From positions 310,001 through 374,000 of the forward strand of contig NZ_CP133089.1 in NCBI RefSeq assembly GCF_030908405.1: 64,000 nucleotides of DNA. Direction: 5' to 3'. The DNA is from Aminobacterium sp. MB27-C1. Lineage in GTDB: Bacteria; Synergistota; Synergistia; Synergistales; Aminobacteriaceae. The notes beneath the pieces were generated by a model, which was not told the origin of the DNA, searched no databases, and saw only the letters and a list, made by a program, of their open reading frames with translations. The position numbers and the translations under genes were made by a program. Below, piece by piece: positions 47,501 to 62,330 of this stretch (position 1 is its first letter; every line of letters starts with the position of its first letter).

Positions 47501-48847
47501 ATGGCTACATTGGTTACAATGCCTAAATTGGGACTCACTATGAACAGTGGCTCTGTATCAGAATGGAAGAAGAAGGAAGGAGACGCTGTTGGTAAAGGTG
47601 AGATTCTGTTTGTAGCAGCAACAGATAAACTGACATTTGATGTAGAAGCTCCAGAAGAAGGCGTTTTATTGGCAACTCTTGTGGCACTAAATGAAGATGT
47701 AAAAGTGGGAGCGCCCTTGGCTGTGATTGGCGAAGAGGGAGAAGATTATATGTCTCTTCTCGGTGAAGTAGAGTCACAAAAGCCTCAGGAGACTCGGCAA
47801 GAAAATTCTTCCTCTTTTGATGTACATGCTGAGCAGGAAAAAAAGAGCGAGACAAAAGGTTTTATCAAAGCATCTCCTCTGGCGAAAAAAACGGCAAAAG
47901 ATTTTGGAGTGGATATTTCTCTTGTAGAAGGAACCGGTCCGGAAGGTCGTATCGTTAAAAAAGACGTTATTGCCTTTGTTCAAAGTGTGTCTGTTTCTTC
48001 AAAAGTAAAGGCATCTCCTGTTGCAGAGCGTATGGCTGCCGATTTGGGAGTCAACCTTATCGACATAGAGAAGCAGGGACGTATTATGAAAGAAGATGTT
48101 ATTTTTGCTTCTCAAGGCAAAACCGCAGCTTCTACTCCTGCTCGCTATGTTTTTCCCGCTGAAGATCGCCGTATTCCTTTAACAAATATGAGGAAGGTTA
48201 TTGGAGAGAGAATGCTTCTTTCTACTACAACCATACCTACAGTGACCTACAACATGGAAGTGGATTTTTCTGCTCTTATTTCTTTAAGAAAGAATATAAA
48301 AGAAGCAGCTTTAAAACAAGATGTAAAAATTTCCTACAATCATATTTTAATGAAAATATGTGCCCAGGTCCTCACCGAATATCCTATGGCGAATGCGAGT
48401 CTTGATGACCAGGAAATTATTCTACATGGCAATGTCAATATAGGTTTGGCAGTTGCTGTAGAGGGCGGTCTTGTCGTTCCCAACGTGAAGGCTGTTCAGG
48501 CAAAGTCTCTGTTGCAAATTGCTTCCGAAACAGATGATATGGTAGCTCGAACTCGAGAAAATCAGCTGGAACTTGAAGAGATGCAAGGTGGAACCTTTAC
48601 TATTTCGAATTTGGGAATGTTCGGAATGCATAGCTTTACGCCAATTGTAAATCCTCCAGAGGCATGCATTTTGGCTGTGAATGCTATTGTTGATCGACCA
48701 ATGGTGATAGACGGAGAAATTCAGGTTCGTCCTATTTCTATGTTATGTCTTACAGCTGATCATCGTCTCGTAGATGGTGCAGATGCAGCTAAATTTTTGG
48801 TCAGAGTTAAAGAACTTATAGAAAATCCCTACCTGCTGCTTTTGTAG
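47501..48847 (+). CDS. Dihydrolipoyl acyltransferase E2 with one lipoyl and two E3-binding domains
   Basis: 448 residues. The N-terminal lipoyl domain carries the lipoyl lysine in ATDKLTFDVEAPEEG (near residue 45). Two peripheral-subunit-binding-like modules follow: IKASPLAKKTAKDFGVDISL and VKASPVAERMAADLGVNLID, each with a GR(I)xKxDV end. The C-terminal catalytic domain shows DHRLVDGADAAKF with the active-site histidine. It transfers the acyl group from lipoyl to CoA and anchors E1 and E3. The ATG at 47501 follows GAAGGAGG. Tandem E3-binding domains are less usual than a single one. Confidence 0.93.
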   Translation: MATLVTMPKLGLTMNSGSVSEWKKKEGDAVGKGEILFVAATDKLTFDVEAPEEGVLLATLVALNEDVKVGAPLAVIGEEGEDYMSLLGEVESQKPQETRQENSSSFDVHAEQEKKSETKGFIKASPLAKKTAKDFGVDISLVEGTGPEGRIVKKDVIAFVQSVSVSSKVKASPVAERMAADLGVNLIDIEKQGRIMKEDVIFASQGKTAASTPARYVFPAEDRRIPLTNMRKVIGERMLLSTTTIPTVTYNMEVDFSALISLRKNIKEAALKQDVKISYNHILMKICAQVLTEYPMANASLDDQEIILHGNVNIGLAVAVEGGLVVPNVKAVQAKSLLQIASETDDMVARTRENQLELEEMQGGTFTISNLGMFGMHSFTPIVNPPEACILAVNAIVDRPMVIDGEIQVRPISMLCLTADHRLVDGADAAKFLVRVKELIENPYLLLL

Positions 48848-48874
48848 GTACCAAGAGGAGGTTTGCAGCAGATT

Positions 48875-50335
48875 ATGGCACATACAATAACAATGCCGAA
48901 ACTGGGCTTAACGATGAATGAAGGAACAATTTCTGACGGGAAAAAACGTATAGTTGTTATAGGGGGTGGCCCGGGGGGCTATGTAGCCGCTATACGAGCT
49001 GCGCAATTGGGAGCTCATGTTACTGTTATTGAAAAAAAACGCCTTGGCGGAGTATGCCTAAATATTGGGTGTATTCCCACCAAAGTTTTGTTGCACACCG
49101 TTGAGCTATATACGGCCATTAAGGCAGGAGCTTCGTTGGGACTCATAGCTGACAATGTATCTGTTGATTGGAATACTTTGATGAAACGAAAAGAAGATGT
49201 AGTGAAGCAATTGACAGGCGGAGTTGGCATACTTCTGAAATCCAATGGAGTAGATGTAGTGGAAGGCGAGGCTGCTTTTGTTTCTCCAAGTGCAGTCCGT
49301 GTACAGTTAAATGCAGGTGGGGAAATGGTTGTGGAGGGTGATAATTTTATAGTGGCGACTGGTTCCGAACCTGTTATTCCGCCAATACCAGGTTTTGATC
49401 TTCCTGGTGTTATTACAAGCAATGAAGCGCTGAGTCTCGATGAGATTCCAACATCTATGGTCATTGTGGGGGGCGGAGTTATTGGCATGGAATTCGCTTC
49501 TATTTTTGCCTCTTTAGGTACAAAAGTGACTGTTGTGGAAATGTTACCTGACGTTCTTCCAAATATTGATGAAGAGCTGGCTCCGATAATAAAAGGGGTT
49601 TTAGGGCGTTTAGGTGTGGAATTCTATACATCTTCCAAGGTAACGAAAGTATGGTCAAGCAGTGATAGCCTTTCTGTTAGTGTAGAAAATATTGATGGCT
49701 CGTTAACGATTGAAGCAGCCAAAGTCCTCGTTTCTGTGGGTCGCCGCCCCGTAACGGGAAGTCTTGAGCTTGAAAAAGCGGGGGTAAAGACTGAGCGAGG
49801 TAGAATTTTAGTAGATAGCCACCTTTGCACAAGTGTAAGTCACATTTATGCAATCGGAGATTGTGCTTCTCCGATTATGCTTGCTCATGTTGCAACTCAT
49901 GAAGGTCTAGTCGCCGCCGAAAATATAATGGGCGAAACAGTTATCATGAACTACAAAACAGTTCCAAGTGCTATTTACACATCTCCTGAGATTGCATCTG
50001 TTGGGCTTACAGAAAAACAAGCTATCGAGAAAGGGTACAAGATAAAAGTAGGACGTTTCCCATTGGTGAATAATGGAAAGTGCGTCATAATGAATGATAT
50101 CGATGGCTTGGTGAAGTATGTTATAGATGAAAAATACAATGAAATACTCGGGGTTCATATTATAGGTCCGAGAGCGACGGATCTTATTGTGGAAGGCGCA
50201 TTAGCTCTTCGACTGGAAGCAACAGCAGAAGAAATTATTTCAACGATTCATGCTCATCCCACAGTAGGAGAAGCTTTGGGAGAAGGAGCTTTAGCAGCTC
50301 TTAACAGGGCTCTTCATCTTCCTGCTAAAAAATAG
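48875..50335 (+). CDS. Dihydrolipoamide dehydrogenase E3 with a vestigial lipoyl-domain N-terminus
   Basis: 486 residues. FAD disulfide oxidoreductase that re-oxidises dihydrolipoyl groups: the FAD motif is IVVIGGGPGGYVAAI, the redox pair CLNIGCIPTK, the NAD motif VIVGGGVIGMEFASI and the C-terminal HAHPTVGEALGE. Ahead of the FAD motif lie 21 residues, MPKLGLTMNEGTISD-type, that align with the start of the E2 lipoyl domain (MPKLGLTMNSGSVSE) but stop before the lipoyl lysine. This looks like a deletion remnant. The ATG at 48875 is 13 bases after AGGAGG; a TTG at 48863 is closer than ideal. It ends the operon at a strong terminator. Confidence 0.93.
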   Translation: MAHTITMPKLGLTMNEGTISDGKKRIVVIGGGPGGYVAAIRAAQLGAHVTVIEKKRLGGVCLNIGCIPTKVLLHTVELYTAIKAGASLGLIADNVSVDWNTLMKRKEDVVKQLTGGVGILLKSNGVDVVEGEAAFVSPSAVRVQLNAGGEMVVEGDNFIVATGSEPVIPPIPGFDLPGVITSNEALSLDEIPTSMVIVGGGVIGMEFASIFASLGTKVTVVEMLPDVLPNIDEELAPIIKGVLGRLGVEFYTSSKVTKVWSSSDSLSVSVENIDGSLTIEAAKVLVSVGRRPVTGSLELEKAGVKTERGRILVDSHLCTSVSHIYAIGDCASPIMLAHVATHEGLVAAENIMGETVIMNYKTVPSAIYTSPEIASVGLTEKQAIEKGYKIKVGRFPLVNNGKCVIMNDIDGLVKYVIDEKYNEILGVHIIGPRATDLIVEGALALRLEATAEEIISTIHAHPTVGEALGEGALAALNRALHLPAKK

Positions 50336-56129: not shown

Positions 56130-57137
56130 TTAAAACATGTTTGTCCAGTTATGTTCAAACCAGAATGCTATATCGTGAGCTTCCTGGGGGATAGAATGAG
56201 GGAAGCTATTTCGTAATCTTTCTGCAAGAGCCTGTCCATTTAGGGGGACCTCGTGCAGAAGGGGCGCTATGCTTGCAATAAGGTCACCGTCCATAGCATC
56301 AGAATAGAGTTGACAGTGAGAGATCATTCCTTCTTTAACGTGGAAACCGAAATCTACGTGTCCCCAATCAAAATGATGTTCCAATTGCACGTCAAAATCA
56401 GGAGAATTCCCATAAATCCATTGTTGACTGCTATATTTTTTATAAATTTTTTGAACGTTATCTTTCAGAGCAAGATCTTTCAGAGAAATAGGAGATCCTT
56501 CTCCTCCGTATTCTTTTAGAAATGAGGTAAAAATTGCTTTTTTTATTACATCAATGGAAAGAGATTCATTAAATTCTTTGAGGTTCGCAACACGAGATTT
56601 TACGGAGTCTATTCCTTTAGCCTTCAGTTTAGCAGCAGGTGGCTGTAAATATCGAACCATTTTTTCTAAGTCAACGTCAACTAAGATTGTGCCGTGATGA
56701 TATCGACCGAGTTTACCTTGATAGAAAGCATTCCCTGAAATTTTTCTGCCATGTACTAGAATGTCGTTTCTACCACTGAAAGAGGCGGGGATTCCAATAG
56801 ATCTGAAGGCGTCAACAAGAACTTTGATATGTCGAATGAAATCGTAACTGAGATGAGAAGCAAGAAATGTAAAGTTTAAATTTCCTAAGTCGTGGTAAAC
56901 CGCTCCGCCACCAGATAATCGACGAGCTAAAGTCCCTTTTTCTTTTTCCAGAAGGCTAGTACGGCATTCCTTCCATGCATTTTGATTTCGGCCAATAACG
57001 ACAGTGTGTTCATTTTGCCAGAGGTATAAAATTACATCATGACGAGAGAGCAACGAGAGAAGATGTTCCTCGAAAGCCAAGTTGATCCATGGATCGAAAA
57101 AAGGAGATTCTGCGAAAAATGTCTTAACTTTGAGCAT
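56130..57137 (-). CDS. lplA: Lipoate-protein ligase A, operonic with the gcv genes
   Basis: 335 residues. ATP-dependent ligase that attaches scavenged lipoate to carrier lysines. Motifs: GRNQNAW, RRLSGGGAVYHDLGNLNFTF and the catalytic lysine in GRKISGNAFYQ. The start is ATG 57137, where GGGAGG is at proper distance; the frame continues upstream to 57371 through the leader RNA, but that part shows no protein-like sequence and no ribosome site. As first gene of the gcv operon it is expected to lipoylate GcvH. A second, only moderately similar ligase is encoded at 61341-62330. Confidence 0.93.
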   Translation of the reverse strand: MLKVKTFFAESPFFDPWINLAFEEHLLSLLSRHDVILYLWQNEHTVVIGRNQNAWKECRTSLLEKEKGTLARRLSGGGAVYHDLGNLNFTFLASHLSYDFIRHIKVLVDAFRSIGIPASFSGRNDILVHGRKISGNAFYQGKLGRYHHGTILVDVDLEKMVRYLQPPAAKLKAKGIDSVKSRVANLKEFNESLSIDVIKKAIFTSFLKEYGGEGSPISLKDLALKDNVQKIYKKYSSQQWIYGNSPDFDVQLEHHFDWGHVDFGFHVKEGMISHCQLYSDAMDGDLIASIAPLLHEVPLNGQALAERLRNSFPHSIPQEAHDIAFWFEHNWTNMF

Positions 57138-57152
57138 GGTGGCACCTCCCGA

Positions 57153-57194
57153 AATAAAAAGCCTACAATAGACATAAATATGTCCATTGCAGGC
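57153..57194 (-). terminator. Leader terminator ahead of the lplA-gcv operon
   Basis: On the minus strand GCCTGCAATGGACATA, TTTA, TATGTCTATTGTAGGC is a 16-pair stem (with G-U pairs) followed by TTTTTATTT. It sits only 16 bases before the lplA ATG, so it must be regulated, as the end of a riboswitch-like leader. Confidence 0.9.
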
Positions 57195-57346
57195 TCCGAT
57201 CCCCTCTAGAGACAATTCATAATAATCATCTTGAAGCCTGGCCGTTGTCCAGATGACTTGTATAATGTCCCTTCGGCGCCTCATTGAGTCTTTTGTGCAT
57301 ATAGAAATAGACTCAACTCGCTTATATTCATTTTGTACCCTACAGT
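57195..57346 (-). ncRNA. Structured leader, possible glycine-riboswitch-type regulator of the gcv operon
   Basis: The roughly 150-base transcript ahead of the terminator has two strong hairpins: TTGAGTCT/AGACTCAA (57316-57284) and TCATCT.../AGATGA (57256-57226). A conserved-looking core, GGCGCCGAAGG (57280-57270), lies between them, resembling the CCGAAGG core of glycine aptamers, and CTCTAGAGGGGATCGGAG follows, comparable to the CUCUCAGGnAAAAGGACnGAG end. The GGAGAG strand typical of the family is not obvious, so the match is partial. The 5' TGTAGG could pair with the terminator's CCTGCA, giving a switch. Function in the glycine cleavage operon makes glycine the natural ligand; the identity needs a covariance search. 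Confidence 0.5.
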
Positions 57347-57371
57347 CTATCGAATATTGTTGCAAAGTCAA
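57344..57371 (-). promoter_or_regulatory. Candidate promoter of the lplA-gcv operon
   Basis: On the minus strand TTGACT, 16 bases, TAGACT lies just upstream of the structured leader. A start near 57340 would place the leader at the 5' end. The match is moderate. The rest of the gap to 57483 holds the unassigned upstream region of the divergent ABC gene, including AT-rich stretches. Confidence 0.4.
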
Positions 57372-57483: not shown

Positions 57484-58494
57484 ATGAAACGTAAATTTTT
57501 AAGTTTTACATTTCTTGGTATTGCGATTATTGCATTATGCCTATCGCCTCTTCATGCTTTTGCCGCAGATCTTATTATTTATTCAAGTGTTGACGAAGAG
57601 AATGCCCGCCATATTTTAGAGACTTTTACAAAAGACACAGGCATAAAGACACAGATGGTATTCTTATCTTCAGGCCCGGCATTAAGCCGTCTTGAAGCGG
57701 AAAAGGCAAATCCACAAGCTGACGTATGGTTTGGTGCGCCGAGTGAAAATCATATTGTAGCTAAGGAAAGAGGTCTTACAGAACCCTATCTTTCTCCCCA
57801 AGCTACTGACCTTGCTGATAATTTTAAGGATACAGAAGGTTTTTGGCATGCTTTCTATATGAATCCTATTGGTATAGGTGTTCTTCCAGATGCCTTGAAA
57901 TCTGAAAATCTCCCAATGCCAGAATCCTGGGAAGACTTAAAACACGAAGGGTTCAAGGGGACGATTCAAATGCCATCACCTCAATCTTCAGGAACAGCTT
58001 TTGCTATTATGATGACCTTAATAAGTATTTATGGAGAAGATGAGGCTTTTGCCTATATGAAAGCTCTTAATCCCAATATCCAGACATATACACAGAGCGG
58101 AACGGGCCCGAGTAAAAATTTAGCCATTAAAGAAGCAAAAGTGGCCATTCAGTTTACTCCTGCATTTCTCAAGCTTGTTGATGAAGGTTTCCCAGCAAAG
58201 GTTATTTTCCCCAAAGAGGGAGTAGGGTATGAAGCTGCAGCCTTATCAATTATCAAAGGAGCTAAAAATAAAGAAGGCGCACATAAACTCATTGACTGGA
58301 TATTATCTAGAAAAGGACAACAATCTCTCAGCGAAAATAAAACATACTTTTTCCCTGTACGAAGTGATGTTACTGCGGGAGAAGGGCTTCCCTCTCTTTC
58401 TGAAATAAAACTTATTGATTATGACAGAGAAAAAGCAGCCCAGGAGAAGGGACGTCTTATTGATCGTTGGGTTACAGAGGTTTTAGGACAGTAA
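57484..58494 (+). CDS. Fbp/AfuA-type periplasmic binding protein of ABC transporter
   Basis: 336 residues. A signal peptide ends near AFAADLIIYSS. The mature protein follows the family of ferric-ion and organophosphate binding proteins: VDEENARHILETFTKDTGIKT, ADVWFGAPSENHIVAKERG and the conserved KEGVGYEAAALSIIKGAKNKEGA. The adjacent tyrosine pair that holds ferric ions in classical FbpA is not seen, so iron cannot be assumed; other oxyanions or small ligands are possible. The ATG at 57484 has GGAGGG seven bases upstream. It is the first gene of a three-gene transporter, ending in a hairpin. Confidence 0.9.
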   Translation: MKRKFLSFTFLGIAIIALCLSPLHAFAADLIIYSSVDEENARHILETFTKDTGIKTQMVFLSSGPALSRLEAEKANPQADVWFGAPSENHIVAKERGLTEPYLSPQATDLADNFKDTEGFWHAFYMNPIGIGVLPDALKSENLPMPESWEDLKHEGFKGTIQMPSPQSSGTAFAIMMTLISIYGEDEAFAYMKALNPNIQTYTQSGTGPSKNLAIKEAKVAIQFTPAFLKLVDEGFPAKVIFPKEGVGYEAAALSIIKGAKNKEGAHKLIDWILSRKGQQSLSENKTYFFPVRSDVTAGEGLPSLSEIKLIDYDREKAAQEKGRLIDRWVTEVLGQ

Positions 58495-58530
58495 ACAAAA
58501 GGGGCTGGTTCTCCTCAGCCCCCTTTTGTT
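58495..58530 (+). terminator. Hairpin between binding-protein and permease genes
   Basis: ACAAAAGGGGCTG pairs with CAGCCCCCTTTTGT (one bulge) around an eight-base loop, with a short T tail. It probably attenuates or stabilises the binding-protein mRNA. Confidence 0.6.
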
Positions 58531-58542
58531 TAGGAGGATTGT

Positions 58543-60237
58543 ATGTCGTATTTACGTAGAGCAAAGAGAGAACTGCGACTCCTATGGCGTGATCCCCTTC
58601 TTGCCCTGTTAGTTGGAGGGGTTGCCTTATCACTTATTCTTTTTGTTCTTTATCCCCTTATTTCAGTGTTGATCAAAAGTTTTCAATCTCAGGAAGGACT
58701 TTATTCTTTACAAAACTACCATCGTTTCTTTACTTTTCGCTATTTGCGAAATGCATTAAAAAATAGTCTTCTTGTGGGGACCGCAACAGGATGTGTTGGT
58801 GTTTTTATAGGTTATATAGCTGCTTTTACTGTTACCAGAACGACAATTCCAGCGAAGAAATTTTTACACGTGCTCTTCATTTTGCCTATAATTTCGCCTC
58901 CTTTTACAAGTTCCCTTGCTATCTTGATGCTCTTCGGAGCAAACGGTCTTATCACCAAGGGTGTTTTAGGTTTAAAAAATTTCAGCATATATGGTTTTAA
59001 AGGTGTACTTCTTTCGCAGATTTTTACATTCGCTCCAGTTGCGTATCTAACGTTAAGGGGGGTATTGGAGTCGTTGAATCCAACGTTGGAGGATGCAGCT
59101 ATGAATGTTGGAGCATCTCGTATGCAAACATTTTGGAAGGTAACGTTACCTCTGAGTCTTCCTGGAATAGCCAGTGCCTTTCTTGTTGTTTTTATTGAAT
59201 CTCTCGCTGATTTTGGAAATCCTCTCGTTTTGGCAGGGAGCCGTTTCCCCATGCTTTCTACACAGGCATATCTGGAAATTACGGGGTCATTTAACCTTCC
59301 TTTGGGAGCGGCGTTGGCGGTAGTCTTGCTTCTTCCGTCTATTACAGCTTTTGCAATACAGCGCTATTACCTTGAAAAACGACAATATACGACAATAACA
59401 GGTAAACCTGTAGCTTCATCGTCAAAGCTTGTTAGCCGAGGTGCTCGAAAAGTTTTGCAATCCTTTGTTGTTGCATTTGCCCTCTTCGTACTCCTTTTTT
59501 ATGGCACAATCTTTGTTGGCGCAATGATAAATGTGTGGGGATATGACTTTTCTTTGACTGCTAAACATTTTCTCTATGCTTTGAGTGTTGGATTCGAAAC
59601 GATAAAAGATACGTTGATTGTTGCCCTCTTATCTACACCTATTTCAGGACTTCTCGGTATGCTTATTGCCTTCCTTGTTGTTCGACAGCGTTTCCCTGGA
59701 AAGGGTACGATTGAATTTGTTTCTATTTTAAATTTTGCTGTGCCGGGAACAGTTGTGGGTATTGGGTATATTTTGGCCTTCAACAAACCGCCTCTTCTTC
59801 TTATCGGAACATTGGCCATTCTCGTGCTTAACTTTATTTTCCGTTATATCCCTGTGGGTATTCAATCAGGAATAGCTGTATTGCGACAGATTGATCCAGC
59901 CATAGAGGAGGCTGCTCAGAATCTGGGGGCAGATGGAGTAACTACCTTTAGGAAGATAACTTTGCCTCTTATTGCGCCAGCCTTTTTTTCCGCGCTTGTT
60001 TTTGCTTTTGTTCGTGCCATGACAGCTATTAGTTCTGCAATCTTCCTTGTTTCTGCACGATGGAACTTGCTTACAGTTCAGATTCTTAACGAGGTTGGGT
60101 CGGGGCGTTTAGGTGTAGCGGCCGCTTTTAGTGTGATTCTTGTCGTAATTGTTCTTTGCGCAATTGTTATTATAAGCCGTCTTGTTTCAGGCAGAGCGGG
60201 TGGGATGAAAGCCATAGAGATTTCAAAGGAGCTGTAA
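58543..60237 (+). CDS. Fused two-domain ABC transporter permease (FbpB/AfuB type)
   Basis: 564 residues with about 12 spans, two binding-protein-dependent permease domains in one chain. Each half carries an EAA loop: LEDAAMNVGASRMQTFWKVTLPLSLPGIA and IEEAAQNLGADGVTTFRKITLPLI (each quoted here only in part). The duplicated form is typical of Fbp/Afu ferric-ion permeases. The ATG at 58543 follows AGGAGG by six bases. It sits 48 bases after the binding-protein gene and 4 before the ATPase gene, so it is a single operon. Confidence 0.93.
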   Translation: MSYLRRAKRELRLLWRDPLLALLVGGVALSLILFVLYPLISVLIKSFQSQEGLYSLQNYHRFFTFRYLRNALKNSLLVGTATGCVGVFIGYIAAFTVTRTTIPAKKFLHVLFILPIISPPFTSSLAILMLFGANGLITKGVLGLKNFSIYGFKGVLLSQIFTFAPVAYLTLRGVLESLNPTLEDAAMNVGASRMQTFWKVTLPLSLPGIASAFLVVFIESLADFGNPLVLAGSRFPMLSTQAYLEITGSFNLPLGAALAVVLLLPSITAFAIQRYYLEKRQYTTITGKPVASSSKLVSRGARKVLQSFVVAFALFVLLFYGTIFVGAMINVWGYDFSLTAKHFLYALSVGFETIKDTLIVALLSTPISGLLGMLIAFLVVRQRFPGKGTIEFVSILNFAVPGTVVGIGYILAFNKPPLLLIGTLAILVLNFIFRYIPVGIQSGIAVLRQIDPAIEEAAQNLGADGVTTFRKITLPLIAPAFFSALVFAFVRAMTAISSAIFLVSARWNLLTVQILNEVGSGRLGVAAAFSVILVVIVLCAIVIISRLVSGRAGGMKAIEISKEL

Positions 60238-60241
60238 GTTC

Positions 60242-61354
60242 ATGGAACTTAATATAAATAATCTAGTTAAAGAATTTGGCAGTTTCGATGATCCATCAAA
60301 TAGAGTAGTTGCTGTCGATCACGTCAATCTTTCTGTTGGGGAGGGAGAGCTAGTAACTCTATTAGGACCTAGCGGTTGTGGTAAAACAACGTTACTTCGA
60401 ATGATTGCTGGTTTTGAGGATCCTACTTCTGGCGACGTCTTCTTTGGTGAAGAGAGAGTGAACAATGTGGCCCCCAATCAAAGGAATGCTACTATGGTCT
60501 TTCAATCCTATGCTATTTTCCCCCACCTTAACGTCTATGAGAATATTGCTTTTGGTCTTCGCCTTAAAAAGATAAAAGAAAAAGAGATAGAAGAGAAGAT
60601 GGAACAAGTTATTGATTTAGTGGGGTTAACAGGATTGGAATCTCGGCAACCGAGCCAACTTTCAGGAGGTCAGCAGCAACGGGTCGCTTTAGCACGAGCC
60701 ATAGTTATGGAACCCGCCCTTCTTCTTTTTGATGAACCTCTTTCTAACCTTGATGCAAAATTGAGAGAACAAATGCGCATAGAAATACGGAATTTGCAAA
60801 AAAGACTGGGAATTACAAGTGTGTATGTTACACACGATCAAGCAGAAGCCATGAGCATTTCAGACCGTATTGTCGTTATGAACAAAGGGCGAATAGTGCA
60901 GATTGGAACACCTTTTGATCTATATGCGAGGCCGGCAAACTCTTTTGTCGCTGCTTTTATTGGTAAGGTCAATTTTATGCCGGTTCGTATCAAAGACAAG
61001 GGGTGTGTACAGATAGGAGGAGCGACCTTACAGGTAACGGAAATGCCATCTGGATGTAGTGTTGATGATACTCTCATTGCAGCATTACGCCCCGAGTCTC
61101 TCATAATAGGCCATATCACTGAGGAGAGTAACATTTACGATAGGGGTAGAATTATCCGCAGAACGTTTTTAGGTACAATCATCGAATATGAAATAGAGGT
61201 TCACAACGAATATTTCAGTGAAAATCTCATTGTTCATACTGTGAACCCCATGACTCCAGATCTTTTTGAAATAGGCGAAACCGTGTTTATTCGGTGTAAA
61301 GAAGAAGCTATTCACATCTTATGTGAAACTCCTGACCTTTCTAACAGCAGATAA
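60242..61354 (+). CDS. ABC transporter ATP-binding subunit (FbpC/PotA type)
   Basis: 370 residues. Walker A is LLGPSGCGKTTLLRMIAG, the Q-loop VFQSYAIFPHLNV, the signature LSGGQQQRVALARAI, Walker B LLLFDEPLSNLDAKL and the switch histidine in VYVTHDQAEA. A C-terminal TOBE-like domain begins near residue 240 (FIGKVNFMPVRIKD). It powers import by the two-domain permease upstream. It starts at ATG 60242, four bases after the permease stop, and its end overlaps the convergent lplA gene by 14 bases. Confidence 0.95.
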   Translation: MELNINNLVKEFGSFDDPSNRVVAVDHVNLSVGEGELVTLLGPSGCGKTTLLRMIAGFEDPTSGDVFFGEERVNNVAPNQRNATMVFQSYAIFPHLNVYENIAFGLRLKKIKEKEIEEKMEQVIDLVGLTGLESRQPSQLSGGQQQRVALARAIVMEPALLLFDEPLSNLDAKLREQMRIEIRNLQKRLGITSVYVTHDQAEAMSISDRIVVMNKGRIVQIGTPFDLYARPANSFVAAFIGKVNFMPVRIKDKGCVQIGGATLQVTEMPSGCSVDDTLIAALRPESLIIGHITEESNIYDRGRIIRRTFLGTIIEYEIEVHNEYFSENLIVHTVNPMTPDLFEIGETVFIRCKEEAIHILCETPDLSNSR

Positions 61355-62330
61355 ACGAGACAATTTCCTCTTTTGGTATAGCTGCAAAATACTTTTCGAC
61401 AAGAACGGAAGATAGCCTCTCCTTCAGAGCGCTTTCTTCATAGGGACAGTTTAAAAGATGATTTTCCAAAACGTCAATGTTTTCGTCACCAAAGAAATCT
61501 CCGAAAAATTGGCAGCCAATGATTGTCCCTTCTTTGATGTTGAAGTAGGCTTCAACCTTCCCTGCATCAAAGCGATGGCTCTTTTTTTCTGTATATTCGG
61601 GGGATTTCCCCCAATTCCATTCCCATGTGTTGTATTTGTCTTCCATAAGTTTCTTTATTTTCTTATGATCATCTTGGGTGAGAGGATATGTTTTCACACC
61701 TTCTTTTTTATCCATTTGATCTAGAATTGCGTTTCGAAATGTTTCTATGGTTATTTTACGGGGAAGCCACGGAAGGATATTTGTCACACGGCTTCGAACA
61801 GATTTTGCAGCCTTAGAAATAAATTTGTCTTCTGAAACATTCAGCGCTTGAGAGAGAACATCAAGATCTGAGTTGAAAAGAAGTGTTCCATGATGGAGTA
61901 GTCTTTTTTTATCCATATGTTGTGCATTCCCTGAGAATTTTTTCCCGTCGATTGAGAGATCATTTCGGCTATTGAACTCAGCTTTTACGCCAAGGCTTTG
62001 CAATACATCAATAATTGGTTGCGTATGTTTTTGAAAATCAAAGGGATTCTCGGAATCGTTAGGAACGGCAAAAGTATAATTGAGGTTACCAAGATCATGA
62101 TACACAGCTCCACCTCCTGTAATACGTCGAACAATGTTAACATTATTCTCTTTTACAAAAGGAGCGTTTATTTCTCCTGCCGTGTTTTGGAATCGTCCTA
62201 CAATGATAGATGGCTCATTACGCCAAAGAAGAATAAATTTTTCTTGACATGTAGATAGTAGAGAATATACGTATTCTTCAAATGCTAAATTGTAACGGGG
62301 GTTGACACTATTATTCTCAATATAATACAT
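61341..62330 (-). CDS. lplA: Second lipoate-protein ligase A
   Basis: 329 residues. Motifs GRFQNTAGE, RRITGGGAVYHDLGNLNYTF and the catalytic lysine in GKKFSGNAQHMDK match lipoate ligases of the LplA type, and the length is full for a ligase with the C-terminal accessory domain. It is only moderately similar to the ligase at 56130-57137, so it is an old paralogue and could serve the E2 of the dehydrogenase complex. The ATG at 62330 is seven bases after GGAGG. It lies alone, overlapping the ABC ATPase gene end by 14 bases. Confidence 0.93.
   Translation of the reverse strand: MYYIENNSVNPRYNLAFEEYVYSLLSTCQEKFILLWRNEPSIIVGRFQNTAGEINAPFVKENNVNIVRRITGGGAVYHDLGNLNYTFAVPNDSENPFDFQKHTQPIIDVLQSLGVKAEFNSRNDLSIDGKKFSGNAQHMDKKRLLHHGTLLFNSDLDVLSQALNVSEDKFISKAAKSVRSRVTNILPWLPRKITIETFRNAILDQMDKKEGVKTYPLTQDDHKKIKKLMEDKYNTWEWNWGKSPEYTEKKSHRFDAGKVEAYFNIKEGTIIGCQFFGDFFGDENIDVLENHLLNCPYEESALKERLSSVLVEKYFAAIPKEEIVSFICC

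Follow-up and report, generated by a model that had tools for sequence, protein, structure and literature searches.

Upstream of lplA, the gene that opens the glycine cleavage operon of Aminobacterium sp. MB27-C1, lies a leader that a preliminary description read as a hairpin-rich RNA leading into a strong terminator, and possibly as a divergent glycine riboswitch. Two questions follow: whether this leader is a conserved regulatory RNA, and whether it belongs to the glycine riboswitch family. The stretch of DNA analyzed (the window) comprises 64,000 nucleotides (G000:C1:310001-374000, G000 being the genome of MB27-C1) from a contig of 2,427,830 bases, and was compared primarily with two further genomes of the genus, G030 (1,980,592 bases) and G031.

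The operon and its leader

The order of elements on the minus strand is a promoter, ~180 transcribed bases, an intrinsic terminator, the ribosome site GGGAGG and lplA, with the leader RNA (57338-57156) located between the promoter and lplA (Table 1). Both promoter hexamers are conserved in G030 and G031, i.e. in all three species of the genus compared. The operon assignment holds: lplA heads the series lplA-gcvT-gcvH-gcvPA-gcvPB-lpdA, all on the minus strand, in which the first four genes are identified by NCBIfam/Pfam and gcvPB and the lpdA-like gene by translation. The link between a structured leader and a strong terminator before lplA is likewise confirmed, with one intrinsic terminator (18-pair stem and U's) and a leader conserved in G030. 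A 413-aa version of lplA that reads through the leader was rejected, given that the upstream open frame of 78 codons in G000 shrinks to only ~38 in G030.

Table 1. Leader elements and operon genes, in window coordinates
Feature	Position	Strand	Basis or detail
Promoter	57344..57371	-	TTGACT 57371-57366, 16 nt spacer, TAGACT 57349-57344; 9/12 matches
P0 hairpin, UUGAGUCU/AGACUCAA	57284..57316	-	57316-57309 pairs with 57291-57284; two-species fold
P1 5' strand, UGAGGCGCCGA	57273..57283	-	includes the GCGCC of the preliminary description; partner 57199-57188; two-species fold
P2 long hairpin	57208..57272	-	lower stem 57272-57266/57214-57208, upper stem 57258-57251/57231-57224
Invariant apical-loop block, ACAACGGCCAGG	57237..57248	-	12 nt; G000/G030 alignment
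Junction J2/1, AGAGGGGA	57200..57207	-	AGGGGA invariant; G000/G030 alignment
P1 3' strand, UCGGAGCCUGCA	57188..57199	-	common to the terminator 5' arm: switching sequence
Intrinsic terminator hairpin and U-run	57156..57197	-	18-pair stem 57197-57158, then U's
Shine-Dalgarno GGGAGG	57145..57150	-	sequence
lplA, lipoate--protein ligase, first gene	56130..57137	-	ATG at 57137; TIGR00545, 350.9 bits
gcvT	56108-55017	-	NCBIfam/Pfam
gcvH	54992-54591	-	NCBIfam/Pfam
gcvPA	ends 53240	-	NCBIfam/Pfam
gcvPB	53243-51777	-	named from translation, without HMM scan
lpdA-like	51760-50408	-	named from translation, without HMM scan

The neighborhood contains further genes of potential relevance to lipoate. An ABC transporter (57484-62330) that resembles the 2-aminoethylphosphonate families PhnS2/PhnU2/PhnT2, below their cut-offs, is flanked by two lplA genes, of which the second occupies 62330-61341 on the minus strand; in G031, ORFs that match the transporter genes in size and order come after lplA. 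A role of this transporter in lipoate uptake is only a guess. On the plus strand, the genes at 47501-50335 look like one for a dihydrolipoamide acyltransferase and one for a dihydrolipoamide dehydrogenase whose N-terminus is lipoyl-like. They meet the gcv operon end to end, and the region thus forms a cluster of lipoate-dependent enzymes.

Conservation and distribution of the leader structure

Together with the terminator, the G000 leader folds better than shuffled sequences (z = -4.69). Without the terminator, the excess is modest (z = -1.88 in G000 and -1.34 in G030), so the hairpin-rich character noted earlier rests largely on the terminator. At the level of sequence, comparison between species is stronger evidence for structure than fold energy. 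The G030 leader is 75% identical to that of G000 and occupies the same position before its own lplA, and once the terminator 3' arm is left out, the two RNAs adopt the same P0-P1-P2 fold. All 33 base pairs of P0, P1 and P2 hold in both species, a count biased in favor of the fold because these two sequences also served to derive it; with the 3' partners slid by 1-3 columns, only 39-47% of the pairs hold. The columns that differ between the two species include 7 of the 66 paired and 29 of the 76 unpaired ones; all seven paired-column changes are transitions and leave the pairs intact, an outcome reached in 2.2% of trials in which such changes were placed at random.

Two-sided changes affect one pair in P0 (U-A in G000, C-G in G030) and one in the terminator, the stem of which still pairs in G030 (U-A to C-G and U-A to U-G). 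In P2, 15 pairs are kept, four of these via one-sided transitions. The P1 helix (UGAGGC.CCGA/UCGG.GCCUGCA) is invariant in both species, its 5' strand included, and accordingly lacks covariation support of its own. A covariation shuffle test returned 266/500, two sequences being too few for shuffles to judge covariation. For the covariation across Synergistota proposed earlier as a check, only two of 183 genomes can be compared; they show a preserved fold with a single compensatory pair in the core and another in the terminator.

A covariance model of the leader, run against these 183 Synergistota genomes, recovers G000 and G030 alone (166 bits each), with no convincing third member (next best 16.1 bits, E=0.65). 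In G031, the promoter and a U-rich terminator are kept upstream of lplA and the leader between them is shorter and largely unrelated; its fold is not unusual compared with shuffles (z = -0.9), and a P1-like helix that overlaps the terminator (CUUGAGCCCC/GGGAGCUUCAAAG, -11.1 kcal/mol) can be drawn. The lplA leader of G101 lacks a terminator upstream of the ribosome site and is not matched by the leader model. In the genome collection, an exact pattern search produced five matches, none of which is leader-like by sequence or matched by the leader covariance model, and two of which look like ferredoxin-type coding sequence; a match in a viral contig was rejected as GC-rich and coding-like. Our literature search found no paper that combines Aminobacterium and riboswitch and, in titles and abstracts, nothing that apparently describes a lipoate riboswitch. 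With its conserved structure, its place ahead of metabolic genes, its expression platform and the lack of a known ligand, this RNA resembles the narrow orphan riboswitch candidates (e.g. PMC6429828), but differs from these in having two representatives in one genus. The leader is a real, conserved, genus-restricted orphan RNA that probably acts as a transcription attenuator of lplA-gcv.

Relationship to the glycine riboswitch

The case for a glycine riboswitch starts from shared features. The leader is located before glycine catabolism genes, namely the lplA-gcv operon, which carries canonical riboswitches at this place in relatives; its expression platform is an intrinsic terminator; a hairpin precedes the GCGCCGA block, as it does in the Synergistota singleton form of the family; and GCGCCGAAGG is common to both in G000. 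This string (57279-57270, minus strand) is the sole copy in the window, with 0.02 expected in shuffles, and occurs three times in the 2.43-Mb genome, once each in the leader, the canonical glycine riboswitch and a helicase-like coding ORF.

The family-level tests point the other way. The covariance-model scan that had been suggested detects no RF00504 in the G000 leader at E<=10, no Rfam family matches the window at the gathering threshold, and the G030 locus has no RF00504 match at E<=5. A Synergistota-specific model, for which 27 glycine aptamers of the phylum were used, assigns 2.0 bits (E=1) to the leader, compared with 80.7 and 89.5 for two canonical members. The canonical GGAGAG strand was called unclear earlier; the invariant 5' GAGAG is absent, with GCGAG in G000 and GCGAU in G030 at the corresponding place. 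The 3' strand CUCUCAGG is missing as well (CUCUAGAGGGGA in G000 and CUCUCUAGGGGA in G030), and the supposedly aptamer-like end, CTCTAGAGGGGATCGGAG, is only loosely similar to the canonical CUCUCAGGCAAAAGGA strand. The aptamer-like core survives in G000 alone: CGCCGAAGG, invariant in the 27 aptamers, is present there and replaced by CGCCGAGGA in G030, where the CCGAAGG of the family becomes CCGAGGA, a change that suits P2 pairing instead. The architecture differs, too: the GGCAA/GAAAC internal loop of the glycine riboswitch corresponds to a helix in the leader, P1 of the leader is made by GCGCCGA itself, and the leader possesses an invariant apical loop, CAACGGCCAGG. Judged by the family features tested, the leader is not a member of the glycine riboswitch family.

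Both G000 and G030 encode one canonical glycine riboswitch elsewhere in the genome. In G000, it is found at G000:C1:594827-594942 (RF00504, 62.8 bits), before a glycine-reductase operon with genes that read as grdX, trxA, grdE and grdA; therefore, the two glycine-catabolic operons of this bacterium carry different leader RNAs.

Even with class membership set aside, a looser form of the glycine riboswitch idea, remote descent, may hold. Canonical glycine riboswitches are located directly before the lplA orthologs of G018, G019 and G040, and in the GcvT tree, G018 and G010 (the contig of which starts too late to include the leader) are sister to Aminobacterium plus G101 with support of 97/94. 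Since a member of this sister clade, which is the nearest to the Aminobacterium lineage, carries a canonical riboswitch before lplA, the leader may be a remodeled descendant or a replacement. Under the first of these possibilities, a canonical riboswitch would have lost the GAGAG strand and the GGCAA/GAAAC loop, with P1 moved, and would perhaps sense glycine or another ligand. The rarity of GCGCCGAAGG in the G000 genome is compatible with such descent, as is the parallel between P0-GCGCC-GA-AGG ... UCU-nn-AGG-GGA in the leader and P2-GCGCC-GA-AGG ... UCU-CA-GGC-n-GGA in the canonical riboswitch, an unscored, by-eye alignment made after the fact. Against these observations stand the lack of an RF00504 match, the 2.0 bits from the Synergistota model, the missing invariant strands and the G030 change that favors P2 pairing. 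Furthermore, the G031 and G101 leaders show no intermediate, and many gcv operons across the phylum have no riboswitch at the corresponding place, so that riboswitch loss appears to be common. On balance, we consider remodeling a tentative reading, appreciably less probable than attenuation by an RNA outside the family. The leader may descend from a glycine riboswitch, may have taken its place as an unrelated RNA, or may resemble it only by chance. A more specific proposal, namely a new riboswitch class confined to Aminobacterium that sits at the ancestral glycine riboswitch site, is possibly derived from a remodeled aptamer and senses another signal of glycine cleavage (e.g. lipoate or a folate one-carbon unit), seems improbable at present.

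A candidate terminator switch and its alternatives

The 3' strand of P1 is part of the 5' arm of the terminator in both G000 and G030, so P1 and the full terminator are mutually exclusive. When growing prefixes of the RNA are folded, P1 forms first and the minimum-energy fold shifts to the terminator only once its 3' arm is included. Imposing P1 on the full-length RNA carries a penalty of 5.5 kcal/mol in G000 and 1.8 kcal/mol in G030. These computed folds make an antiterminator/terminator switch composed of P1 and the terminator plausible. The preliminary description had instead paired the terminator with TGTAGG (57344-57339), which is located at the probable transcription start or ahead of it, immediately following the TAGACT -10 box, and lacks conservation in G030; in the folding model, P1 rather than TGTAGG is the actual competitor. 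An additional contact might involve CAGGCU in the apical loop and AGCCUG in the terminator 5' arm, a candidate pseudoknot (CAGGYU/AGCCUG) with computed energies of -14.2 and -8.5 kcal/mol, the six complementary bases alone being not significant. Mutually exclusive helices with a common terminator 5' arm are also characteristic of T-box and other terminator-antiterminator leaders; unlike those, the present leader has no match at E<=10 to T-box, tRNA-responsive or other such families in Rfam.

Stabilization of a core leading to read-through is the usual layout of transcription switches. Here, a signal would stabilize the core, consisting of P1, P2, the CAACGGCCAGG loop and the AGGGGA junction; the stabilized P1 would hold the terminator 5' arm, allowing the polymerase to read through into lplA-gcv. 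Without the signal, the terminator would form and lplA-gcv would be off, this direction of control being the presumed one. A metabolite of the glycine cleavage pathway (glycine, lipoate or a folate one-carbon unit) would be the natural guess for the signal.

A rival reading is an ordinary leader in which a partial terminator acts in a fixed way, without any regulated switch, and conservation protects only the terminator and P2. The narrow distribution of the leader, its modest z-score without the terminator and the very different leader of G031 fit this view, which we nevertheless regard as unlikely: the apical loop and the junction are conserved outside the helices, and P1 overlaps the terminator in both species. 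Less likely still, the conserved CAACGGCCAGG loop would be bound by a protein acting as antiterminator or attenuation factor, instead of a small molecule. The arrangement seen here, in which a terminator adjoins a long hairpin whose 12-nt apical loop is invariant, is common in protein-dependent antitermination, but no known RNA target family in Rfam matches the leader and no candidate regulator gene is found nearby. Leader-peptide attenuation via a 16-codon ORF (ATGAATATA...CAATGA) that spans P0 in the window sequence is highly improbable and largely contradicted by G030, where the frame is not kept (TTG start, TGA out of frame); the ORF also has no glycine-rich run.

With some confidence, we favor a reading in which transcription attenuation by a conserved 5'-leader RNA probably controls the lplA-gcv operon, this RNA falling outside the glycine riboswitch family as currently defined. 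If it is a working switch, the leader would add an unlisted regulatory RNA to the control of a core energy pathway in bacteria that ferment amino acids. A glycine riboswitch precedes the same gene in species of the sister clade and elsewhere in the phylum, and G000 keeps a canonical one for the competing glycine-reductase operon. The locus would thus present a testable case of a riboswitch that was lost, replaced or turned to another ligand.
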